Shown: in pieces, positions 15,020 to 42,546 of the stretch
How the letters are laid out: each line of letters opens with the position of its first letter
Numbering within the stretch: position 1 is the first letter of the stretch
Virus record (IMG/VR): IMGVR_UViG_3300032293_001294
Location: 1 to 64,000 of that record
Reading direction: 5' to 3' (one strand)
Source of the DNA: a virus
Length of the DNA: 64,000 nucleotides
Notes under the pieces: model-generated
What the model was told of the DNA's origin: nothing
Databases searched by the model: none
The model's input: the letters and a program-made list of their open reading frames with translations, nothing else
Position numbers and translations under genes: made by a program

Positions 15020-16819
15020 CTACTTAAACCCTTGTCCCATACCAGGATCTTGTTGAATCGCATTCTTTTCTTCGATTAAGATAGTAATTGCTTGTTGGGC
15101 TGCTTGTTCTTCAGATAATCCTTGTGATAGTAATCGGCTGAATATAGAAGCAAAGTTGGTAAGATCAGCTACTAAAGTTTCTGCTGTACTATCTTGTTGT
15201 TCTTTTTCAAGACGTTGTAAGAATAAGTCTTTTTGTGGGAAGTCTGAGTACTTGACTAAATCTTGTGGAGTAATGATTTGTGGTTTAATTTGATACTGTG
15301 CTTGCATCTCATAGAGTGCTTTAGCTGAATCAAACAAGTTGGCTTGGTTCATTGGAAGCAGTGTCGATGCTGCAATATTGTAGTCAAATTTCATACCTCG
15401 TGCTCTTAACTCATTAAATTTAATTGTACTTTGATCAATAACACGGTTAGTGCCTGTAGCTGATAGTTTAGGTACAATATAAGATTTTTCACCACCATAA
15501 GCAAAGTAATATTCAAGTACTAATTTAGTTAAGTCTTCACAAAATTCTTCAAGTAATGTAATACGGCTGTTATCGGTTAACATGGTTACACGTGCTTGAA
15601 ATGCTTGAGTTGCGCCAGTTGTTTGAATACTATTTGTCATACGACCTTTATAGTATGGGTCAACACCTGTAACTTGAAAGATTGAATTTTCTAAACGTTG
15701 TTTAATATTACCTAAGTCAGGAATGACTGGAACGTCAACATAGTAAACTAAGTTACGTGGATCGCCTTTGGTTTCAAAAGAAGCTCCAGGAGTGCCACCG
15801 TAGTCAGCAAAGGAACGCATATTAATACGTCCATCTGTATTAACAAATCGTACCCGATTAAGTACACGATAAGGTTGGGTTGCTTCCATAGAGTCTAGCA
15901 TGTTAAGAGCAATAACAGTGTTAAGAACTTTATTTAATTTTGAATTTCCGTAAGGATTTGCATCTGGGCGTTGAGGACTATAACAAACAATAGGAAAACG
16001 TTTAAGTGGAATGTTTAAGTTTTCGTAGATAATCGTATCTTCGTTAAGTATAAAGATTTGATCGATTGTTCCTTTTTCATTACGAATAAAACATTCAATA
16101 AGAGAAACTACTTTATTGTCAGTAACTACTTGATTTGCATCTACATTAGCATTAGGAATTTTTTGATTAAGAGGATCTTTCGGAATACCATAAGATCCAT
16201 AACCACCTAATTTGTTTTGAGCAGTTTTGTCTGTAATCGCACCTTTATTTCTTTTAATAAACTCTTCAACAGGTTCTTTAAAATTAGGATTAGTTACAAG
16301 GGTATAAACATTAACAGCTCTTTCAATAAAAATAGCTTCACCATTTTTATATGAATCCACACTTGGGTCAAAATAAAGTTCATCAGGAGACAATGCTTTA
16401 AGTTTAATATGATTATCAGTGGCATCCCAATCTACACGCATTGCTCCTAAATTATATAACTCTGCGTTTTCACCAACATGTAAAAATTTATTTTTCATTC
16501 CCCAACGATTCCAGTTGTACGAAATGAATGCATTAAGATCTTGTACAGTTTTTTCATCCTTAGCAAACCGTGGAGTAATAGTGCCGATAAAAGCACCACT
16601 ATAAATAGAGTTCATATACCCTTGAACAACATATTCTAAATAATTCCAGTCAGGTGTAATAGAATATTCTTTTAAATTCTTTTTAAATAAAGTCCAAAAT
16701 TCACCTTTATATAAAGAACGAATAAGCCGCCACTCGCTTAAAATGCCTTGTTTATAAGCACGATACTCATCAAACATTTGTTTAATACGAAAAACATCAT
16801 AAGTAAAATTTTTTGTCAT
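15020..16819 (-). CDS. Portal protein
   Basis: 599 residues, the normal size for a podovirus-type portal. Characteristic features are the N-terminal FDEYRAYKQ-type helix, the NWNYLEYVVQGYMNS segment, GAMRVDWD (residues ~126-133), LSPDELYFDPS (~143-153) and a Gln-rich C-terminal barrel tail (EEQAAQQAITILIEE). The portal is the dodecameric ring through which DNA enters and leaves the capsid and on which the terminase docks. It lies two genes downstream of the large terminase, the standard packaging order. Its start overlaps the end of the small membrane protein gene. Identification rests on size, context and pattern. Confidence 0.8.
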   Translation of the reverse strand: MTKNFTYDVFRIKQMFDEYRAYKQGILSEWRLIRSLYKGEFWTLFKKNLKEYSITPDWNYLEYVVQGYMNSIYSGAFIGTITPRFAKDEKTVQDLNAFISYNWNRWGMKNKFLHVGENAELYNLGAMRVDWDATDNHIKLKALSPDELYFDPSVDSYKNGEAIFIERAVNVYTLVTNPNFKEPVEEFIKRNKGAITDKTAQNKLGGYGSYGIPKDPLNQKIPNANVDANQVVTDNKVVSLIECFIRNEKGTIDQIFILNEDTIIYENLNIPLKRFPIVCYSPQRPDANPYGNSKLNKVLNTVIALNMLDSMEATQPYRVLNRVRFVNTDGRINMRSFADYGGTPGASFETKGDPRNLVYYVDVPVIPDLGNIKQRLENSIFQVTGVDPYYKGRMTNSIQTTGATQAFQARVTMLTDNSRITLLEEFCEDLTKLVLEYYFAYGGEKSYIVPKLSATGTNRVIDQSTIKFNELRARGMKFDYNIAASTLLPMNQANLFDSAKALYEMQAQYQIKPQIITPQDLVKYSDFPQKDLFLQRLEKEQQDSTAETLVADLTNFASIFSRLLSQGLSEEQAAQQAITILIEEKNAIQQDPGMGQGFK

Positions 16820-36999: not shown

Positions 37000-38985
37000 A
37001 TGATTAAATATCTGATCTATGATACTGAGACTACAGGTCTCAATATTATTTCAGACAAACCATTTATGTTTCAATATGGATTAGTCGATCACAATCTACA
37101 GCTTGTATCAAGCGATTGGTTTCACGTGAAAGACAAAGCCAAGATGGATGTGTTTAAACAACACTTACTGTCCATCAATACAATCGTCGGTCATAACATT
37201 AAGTTTGACCTACACATGGCAATCAATGCTGGGTTCGATAAAGAAATCTTTATGAATAAAAACTTTATTGATACATCAGTACTATCACGATTAGTGATAG
37301 ACCATGATACACAAACTGATAAAACATTTTCTGCCGGTCTTAAAACACTTGGTGTTAGATACTTAGGTATCGATTCCAATACAGAAGAACGTGCATTGAA
37401 AATGGAACTAAGCCGACTTGTATCAGAACATAAACAAAAGATGAAAGACTATTTCGTAGCGCAAGGTGTGTGGGATAATAAGCTAACACAAACAAATCAA
37501 ACCAAGTTAATTAATGACATTTATCTTAACTGGAATAAAGTGTTTCACTTACACTCACAATTCACACAACCACGTAAAGCATTCTTACAATCAAATCCTG
37601 AACCTACCTATGAACAATGTTCAAACGTTGTCACATATGGTATGACAGATATTAAATTGACCCATGGTTTACTTAAACTATGGTATCCAAAAGCAGTCAC
37701 ACTACAACAAGTTGATACGCTTAAACGGATTAGTAATGCGACCTATCCATTAGTCATTATGGAACGTCAAGGTCTAGCCGTCGATGTCCAACAAGTTCTT
37801 AAAGATAGAGCCAAGATTGTCGACGAACTTAGTAAGACAACCATCGTTGATCCAAGAACCAATACAACATTATCGATTGGTCAACATGCTAAACTTAAAG
37901 AACTATACGAATATGAATCAGGTGAATCGTTAGAAAGTTCAGATAAAGAAACACGCTCTGAGATCGAAGACGTATCTCCAGCGGCTAAAGCAGCAAACTA
38001 TATTGCTAAATTAGATAAGTATCTTAATACTTATGTAAGATCTATACTGGATAAACTAACCTTAGTTGGTAAAGAATACCGTGTCTTTACTCAATATAAC
38101 CTAGCAGGTACAATTACAGGACGCTTATCATCAGACTTCCAACAGTTCCCTAAGGATGCAATTAAACTAGCAGATGGAACTGAAGTCAATATACGTAGCT
38201 GGTTCGTTGTACCAAAGCAAGATAAGTACATGTTCTACTTTGACTATAGTCAAATGGAACTACGTCTTCAATGCGAATGGACTAACATTGTCAATGGTCA
38301 ACCAGACATCAACATGGCACGAGCATTCACGCCATACAAATGTATACAAAAAGATGGTAAGTATTTCTTAGAAGAAGATCCAACTAAAGAGTGGAAGCCA
38401 ACAGACTTGCATGCACTCACAGCTAAAAACGCTTTCCCAAACATAGATGAAACACACCCAGATTGGAAACAATATAGAAACCTTGGTAAACGTACCAACT
38501 TTGCAGTTAACTATGGTGCAGCCGCACCTAAAATACAACAAGCTTTAAAGGTAGATTTTCCTACCGCACAAGCTTTAGTACAAGGTTACCGTAAAGCATT
38601 TGCAGGTGTCGTCGCGTTTGGTAAGTGGATTAGCAACCGAGTGTATGTCACAGACAATATACCTAACCTATTACTGCGTAGATATTATTCACGTAATAAA
38701 CATCAGTTACAAAACTGGTTAGTACAAGGTAGTGGTGCTGACATTCTATTACTAAAGCTTAGAGAAATATTTGAGTATATTAAAAACAAACCACACTGGA
38801 AGTTCATGATCACAGTTCACGACGAACTAGGATTTGTATGCTCAGACATACCACAAGAACAGCTTAAGCGTGAAGTTAAAGATATACAAAACCTAATGAC
38901 ACATAGCATGTCTGCTGTGGATATCATTAGTGATGTAGAATATACAACGACCAAGTGGTCAGAAAAGGATGAATGGACAGAATGA
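37000..38985 (+). CDS. polA: Family A DNA polymerase with 3'-5' exonuclease
   Basis: 661 residues. N-terminal DEDD exonuclease: YDTETTGL (residues ~7-14) and NTIVGHNIKFDL (~60-70). Polymerase motifs: A, FDYSQMELR (~414-422); B, K-x3-NFAVNYG around 499-506; C, TVHDELG (~606-612). It copies the genome with proofreading. No 5'-3' exonuclease is present, as in T7-like polymerases. The gene has AAGGAAGG upstream and ends in the next start. Confidence 0.93.
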   Translation: MIKYLIYDTETTGLNIISDKPFMFQYGLVDHNLQLVSSDWFHVKDKAKMDVFKQHLLSINTIVGHNIKFDLHMAINAGFDKEIFMNKNFIDTSVLSRLVIDHDTQTDKTFSAGLKTLGVRYLGIDSNTEERALKMELSRLVSEHKQKMKDYFVAQGVWDNKLTQTNQTKLINDIYLNWNKVFHLHSQFTQPRKAFLQSNPEPTYEQCSNVVTYGMTDIKLTHGLLKLWYPKAVTLQQVDTLKRISNATYPLVIMERQGLAVDVQQVLKDRAKIVDELSKTTIVDPRTNTTLSIGQHAKLKELYEYESGESLESSDKETRSEIEDVSPAAKAANYIAKLDKYLNTYVRSILDKLTLVGKEYRVFTQYNLAGTITGRLSSDFQQFPKDAIKLADGTEVNIRSWFVVPKQDKYMFYFDYSQMELRLQCEWTNIVNGQPDINMARAFTPYKCIQKDGKYFLEEDPTKEWKPTDLHALTAKNAFPNIDETHPDWKQYRNLGKRTNFAVNYGAAAPKIQQALKVDFPTAQALVQGYRKAFAGVVAFGKWISNRVYVTDNIPNLLLRRYYSRNKHQLQNWLVQGSGADILLLKLREIFEYIKNKPHWKFMITVHDELGFVCSDIPQEQLKREVKDIQNLMTHSMSAVDIISDVEYTTTKWSEKDEWTE

Positions 38986-42337: not shown

Positions 42338-42367
42338 ACTACACGTTTAGCCCACGTTACGGGCTCT

Positions 42368-42484
42368 CTAACTAAACTCTTTAATGGGGTAGTCGGGTAA
42401 GACATATCACTTTAGCAGATGCTCCTGCTTAACATATGTAACGTGGGTTCAACTCCCACCTACTCCACCAAAGAGTTTAGTTAG
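42368..42484. repeat. Perfect 15-bp inverted repeat enclosing the tmRNA-like element
   Basis: CTAACTAAACTCTTT (42368-42382) and AAAGAGTTTAGTTAG (42470-42484). The right arm begins with the last A of CCA. With a 3 x 3 internal loop it stacks directly on the acceptor stem. Confidence 0.85.
42386..42470 (+). ncRNA. tmRNA-type tRNA-like element (minimal)
   Basis: 85 nt. Acceptor stem GGGGTAG pairs fully with CTACTCC, including a G3-U70 pair (the alanine identity element), then A and CCA. The T-arm is a 5-bp GTGGG/CCCAC stem with loop TTCAACT, as in tmRNA 3' ends. Instead of a canonical D-arm and anticodon arm there is a stemless TCGGGTAAG segment, then ACATAT/ATATGT (a P2-like stem) around AGCAG/CTGCT. 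The inner sequence contains GCA GAT GCT CCT GCT TAA. A class II tRNA-Ser(GCU) with a 6-nt anticodon loop fits worse. No ordinary tRNA fold was found. Confidence 0.6.
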
Positions 42485-42487
42485 GTT

Positions 42488-42546
42488 AACTTATTACGGC
42501 ACCCAATAAGTTGATACATCACTCCTTCCTTTCATGTACGGGTGCC
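42488..42546. other. Pseudoknot candidate
   Basis: AACTTATT / AATAAGTT hairpin (42488-42495, 42505-42512) whose 9-nt loop ends GGCACCC; that loop is complementary to GGGTGCC at 42540-42546. Confidence 0.5.

Follow-up and report, generated by a model that had tools for sequence, protein, structure and literature searches.

Can a transfer-messenger RNA (tmRNA), with which bacteria release ribosomes that have become stuck, be reduced in a phage to its tRNA-like domain (TLD), and what would such an RNA do there? The question is raised by positions 42386–42470 (+ strand) of a 64,000-nt stretch, hereafter the window, of the virus record IMGVR_UViG_3300032293_001294. The record is 75,709 bases long, and the window contains genes for a terminase, portal, primase and PolA, which mark the locus as phage-encoded. 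The original prediction had described these 85 nt as a minimal tmRNA with a resume codon GCA and a short tag ADAPA. From the sequence, Rfam match, fold and relatives, we found that the segment is the tRNA-like domain of a tmRNA without the mRNA part, here called a TLD-only tmRNA or mini-tmRNA.

Structure and conservation in close relatives

From 5′ to 3′, the RNA consists of the acceptor strand GGGGTAG (42386–42392), the stemless D-loop TCGGGTAAG (42393–42401), the P2-like strands ACATAT (42402–42407) and ATATGT (42434–42439) around a 26-nt interior (42408–42433), the triplet AAC, the T-arm GTGGG-TTCAACT-CCCAC (42443–42459), and the acceptor strand CTACTCC followed by the discriminator A and an encoded CCA (42460–42470). 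The two acceptor strands form 7 bp including G3.U70, so that the acceptor, stemless D-arm, P2-like stem, T-arm and CCA named in the original prediction are all present. The T-arm and the 3′ acceptor end were recovered in both the Rfam and the family alignments. Folded alone, the RNA adopted the TLD structure with a minimum free energy of −25.9 kcal/mol (z −2.2), and this fold was retained within a 263-nt context (z −8.1).

The Rfam tmRNA model RF00023, run against 1 kb, matched the RNA with both ends aligned (37.0 bits, E 4.5e-13). This score lies below the gathering score of 47 bits, because the middle positions are missing from the 85-nt RNA. No tmRNA or other Rfam family reached its gathering score in the window. 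ARAGORN called neither a tRNA nor a tmRNA on the 85-nt RNA, and a canonical tRNA was rejected on this result together with the missing D-stem. An anticodon arm with a 7-nt loop was likewise absent from the predicted fold, and the 85 nt contained no tmRNA pseudoknots.

Five contigs encoded a PolA with 81–96% identity to that of the window phage, and four of them (L002, L003, L005 and L006) carried a 79-nt TLD at the same place, with acceptor, D-loop and T-arm identical to those of the window RNA. Their P2 stem was ACAATCT/AGATTGT as against ACATAT/ATATGT in the window, a difference of three compensatory changes, while the P2 interior of all four, ATAAACCTTATGGGCTAA, was unrelated to that of the window. 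The stem was therefore selected and the ADAPA frame was not. The string TTA GCA GAT GCT CCT GCT TAA is present in the window, but its frame was lost in all four relatives, and the proposed resume codon and tag were rejected. The idea of a phage-borne RNA stripped to its TLD fared better, being borne out by the fold, the phage genes around it, the relatives and a model from unrelated phages. Since the RNA was kept in four relatives with compensatory changes and was also recovered by that model, it is beyond chance.

TLD-only genes in other phages

A pattern of the D-loop and T-arm retrieved the same architecture from an unrelated phage (L010/L013), in which the D-loop core CGGGTAAGAC recurs and a 70-nt RNA with the acceptor GGGATTG/CAATTCC and G3.U70 adjoins a tRNA-Thr. 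One early acceptor pattern gave 0 matches, and a corrected one gave 7 matches on the genome contigs, 4 of which were not ARAGORN tRNAs and none of these had a matching acceptor. A later pattern added the TLD-only RNAs of L067/L080 and L083. The final pattern fixed U70 and the T-arm and left the 5′ acceptor, position 3 and P2 free; it yielded at least ∼55 further distinct TLD-only genes of 65–100 nt in viral contigs, with a weak or bulged P2 in a handful of the ∼55 listed. A perfect 7-bp acceptor was found in 63 of the 83 unique matches listed (10% in a swapped control); G3 was present in every one of these 63, which include some canonical tRNAs. The usual form combined a D-loop (T)GGTTTCGA, a P2 of 6–9 bp, an inner AAAGCC...GGA motif and then GGAC. 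Some P2 interiors were as short as 3–4 nt (GCA in L197 and GCGA in L184), which leaves no space for a resume codon and tag.

The helices of this family covary. In 12 members with equal D-loops, 99.1% of the cells paired (at most 53% in slid controls) and 62 cells were changed on both sides, compared with 17.8 in shuffles, with both-sided changes at six of the seven P2 pairs. A covariance model built from these 12 members, none of them a window relative, scored L067 at 71.9 bits, Stenotrophomonas phage Jojan60 at 71.3, L083 at 55.3, L002–L006 at 53.3, L010 at 45.1 and the window at 38.3. In an alignment of 61 sequences, which was fitted to the model and somewhat favours it, 97.4% of the cells paired, all seven P2 pairs covaried with changes on both sides, and position 3:70 was G.U in 60 sequences. 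The covariation put forward as a check on the acceptor and P2-like stems was thus observed in both helices.

Unannotated copies were found in the cultured Stenotrophomonas phage Jojan60 and Streptomyces phages BRock and LuckySocke, the latter two by similarity and likewise with G3.U70; ARAGORN had missed these cultured-phage copies. ARAGORN tmRNA calls did lie over three minis (L156, L158 and L188); at least in L156 and L158, the tags called are implausible. An SmpB gene was detected in 0 of 44 carrier records, some of them fragments, in a search that included a positive control. In ∼990 bacterial genomes, a screen of limited sensitivity returned only two likely copies, of which one lies in a prophage and the second has a degenerate acceptor. 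Two further bacterial matches (L291 and L292, 45–46 bits) were rejected as true full tmRNAs, and scores near 45 bits therefore require a tmRNA check.

The scans also turned up a 66-nt TLD-only candidate (L279, 565–630) in the TM7 phage DolZOral124_53_65, assembled from a dolphin sample, and a 133-nt relative whose P2 interior is longer (L174, 173–305, − strand), possibly an intermediate between full and TLD-only tmRNA. In Aeromonas phage Akh-2 (L267, 953–1027), an amber-suppressor tRNA (CTA) had an acceptor of the alanine type with G3.U70.

Decoy reading and its alternatives

In tmRNA, AlaRS, EF-Tu and SmpB read those parts that are conserved in the TLD-only RNAs, and G3.U70 is a determinant for AlaRS. 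Without an mRNA-like domain, neither a resume codon nor a tag is supplied, and the lack of a coding part makes a competitive decoy most likely. We propose, with a probability of about 0.6, that the RNA is a phage tmRNA reduced to its TLD that acts as such a decoy against host trans-translation, which appears to be the best-supported function among the readings considered. The TLD would be transcribed as the final element of the replication operon and would probably be excised from a precursor in which it is enclosed by a 15-bp stem of TCTAACTAAACTCTT (42367–42381, + strand) and AAGAGTTTAGTTAGG (42471–42485, + strand). This stem, seen in the fold in context, shows a compensatory change from C-G to U-A in L002 and probably serves processing or maturation of the TLD. 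From G3.U70, A73 and CCA, the host AlaRS would be expected to charge the RNA with alanine, and EF-Tu and host SmpB to bind it. Host tmRNA would then lose SmpB, and possibly stalled ribosomes, to the decoy. In the infected cell, trans-translation would be blocked or short-circuited, and ribosomes that stall there would escape tagging together with their peptides.

Precedents exist for several parts of this proposal. The tmRNA of mycobacteriophage DS6A was given as 'TLD only', and a similar TLD-like molecule strongly inhibits Escherichia coli tmRNA whether chargeable or not, perhaps by titrating SmpB (Hudson et al. 2014, PMC4131195); the 2025 tmRNA database paper repeats the inhibition result, citing Mao et al. 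2009 (PMC11915505). Contrary to what had been supposed, an 85-nt phage version is not new in kind, since the DS6A RNA was reported earlier (PMC4131195, PMC11915505). Compared by description only, the DS6A RNA is likewise a phage TLD without the mRNA part, whereas the window RNA comes from a phage of another group and has the CGGGTAAGAC D-loop, the 15-bp enclosing stem and a downstream pseudoknot. Canonical one-piece tmRNA (RF00023) shares the acceptor with G3.U70, A73, the stemless D-loop, the P2-like stem, the T-arm and CCA, but is several hundred nt long and has the mRNA-like domain, resume codon, tag and pseudoknots that the 85-nt RNA lacks. Canonical tRNA-Ala shares G3.U70, the T-arm, CCA and a near-equal length, but has the D-stem and anticodon arm missing here. 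Tag-less mitochondrial tmRNAs of jakobids and ∼65-bp plastid genes of Mallomonadaceae have also been described (PMC11915505); they resemble the window RNA as tmRNAs without a coding part, but were reduced by the organelle genomes' own evolution, whereas the window RNA is a phage gene.

Some observations weigh against the decoy reading or the family assignment beneath it. With the 12-member model, canonical tRNAs scored up to ∼36 bits and the window barely higher; this score being marginal, family membership rests on the relatives at 53.3 bits, the fold and the Rfam match. The D-loop CGGGTAAGAC differs from the tmRNA consensus GGNUUCGAC, and SmpB contacts may therefore differ. Related phages L004 and L020 lack the TLD, and the RNA is therefore not essential to the group. 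In L004, the fifth PolA relative, the same gap holds a short hairpin and the pseudoknot, and a scan of the rest of the record found no TLD; Paenibacillus phage API480, the nearest cultured relative, has no such RNA.

Among other functions, the RNA might act with host SmpB as a tag-less rescue RNA that takes over the peptide as Ala-TLD while other factors complete release, aiding translation in infection. The strict retention of G3.U70, which a pure SmpB sponge would not need, suggests that charging matters and so leaves room for such a role; the same has been proposed for tag-less mitochondrial tmRNAs, which co-occur with a mitochondrion-targeted SmpB (PMC11915505). We consider it possible but clearly less probable than a decoy, given that a TLD-like RNA inhibits E. 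coli tmRNA charged or not (PMC4131195). It is improbable, though less so than the readings that follow, that the TLD serves the replication-operon mRNA as an element for 3′-end processing or stabilisation, with the end set by RNase P and RNase III-type cuts and the released RNA without a role. Its position directly after the operon, inside the 15-bp stem and ahead of a pseudoknot and hairpin, both kept in L004, would suit this, but copies in other phages have no flanking stem and sit in tRNA clusters or at other places, and RNase P processing does not need G3.U70.

The remaining readings concern what the RNA is. Two-piece tmRNAs are known in some bacteria and phages (PMC9004378), and the RNA could be one half of such a system with its mRNA-like part on a separate phage RNA; this is very unlikely, as its P2 stem closes on itself and neither Rfam at gathering score nor ARAGORN found a second piece in the window. 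The chance is similarly small that the RNA is a tRNA for decoding or suppression whose anticodon arm is unusual, as its size, its T-arm and the model scores of canonical tRNAs might suggest: it has no D-stem, its 6–7-bp P2 lacks a 7-nt loop with U33, the P2 interior is not conserved and ARAGORN called nothing. An att-site remnant of a host ssrA gene would account for the ssrA-like 3′ end, but the original prediction was right to disfavour it. We rejected it, leaving it a slighter chance still, because relatives have kept the 5′ acceptor strand and P2 with compensatory changes and the locus lies between conserved neighbouring genes in the window phage. Least probable of all is a complete 85-nt coding tmRNA, whose letters the window does contain, with the frame missing in relatives and the interiors of other members down to 3–4 nt.

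More broadly, many groups of phages may shut down or redirect the trans-translation of their hosts with mini-tmRNAs as widespread, independently evolving counter-rescue decoys; we put the chances of this at about even. Whether bacterial ribosome rescue is commonly attacked by a phage RNA mimic is made a testable question by the breadth of the family. A TLD-only tmRNA was previously on record for one phage and is now seen as a large, structurally conserved and for the most part unannotated family in many; a literature search, with subscription papers mostly outside its coverage, found no account of a wider phage family. The novelty lies in the window lineage, in the wide spread of such RNAs among phages, with unannotated copies in cultured ones, and in the 15-bp flanking stem and downstream pseudoknot of this lineage. 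As small natural TLDs whose P2 is closed, these RNAs would also be useful in work on SmpB and as blockers of trans-translation.

Flanking structures and neighbouring genes

The TLD lies in the gap between a replication operon, comprising PolA (37000–38985), an exonuclease, an AAA protein and three small open reading frames (ORFs), and a convergent 7071-aa ORF on the opposite strand. The terminase and PolA are only 29–32% identical to those of Paenibacillus phages API480 and SV21. Upstream of the flanking stem, the context fold and the relatives' alignment revealed a conserved hairpin AGCCC-ACGTTAC-GGGCT (42349–42365, + strand). Within it, CCCACGTTAC (42351–42360) is the exact complement of GTAACGTGGG in the TLD (42438–42447), exact also in L003 and weaker in L002 and L005, and an alternative pairing of the two is possible.

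Downstream of the TLD and outside it, an H-type pseudoknot (42488–42546, + strand) was read from the alignment, with the first stem at 42488–42495/42505–42512 and the second at 42498–42504/42540–42546. The second stem covaries (GGCACCC/GGGTGCC, GTACC/GGTAC, AGCACC/GGTGCT and GCCCGTC/GACGGGC). The L004 pseudoknot, near 15160–15215, precedes a TTTT and is a possible terminator of an unusual kind.

The 7071-aa ORF (42594–63809, − strand) takes up more than a quarter of the 75.7-kb phage genome. It had no significant Pfam match, and a search with its C-terminus found no relatives; it contains the motif GADTDGD, which resembles an RNA polymerase active-site motif.
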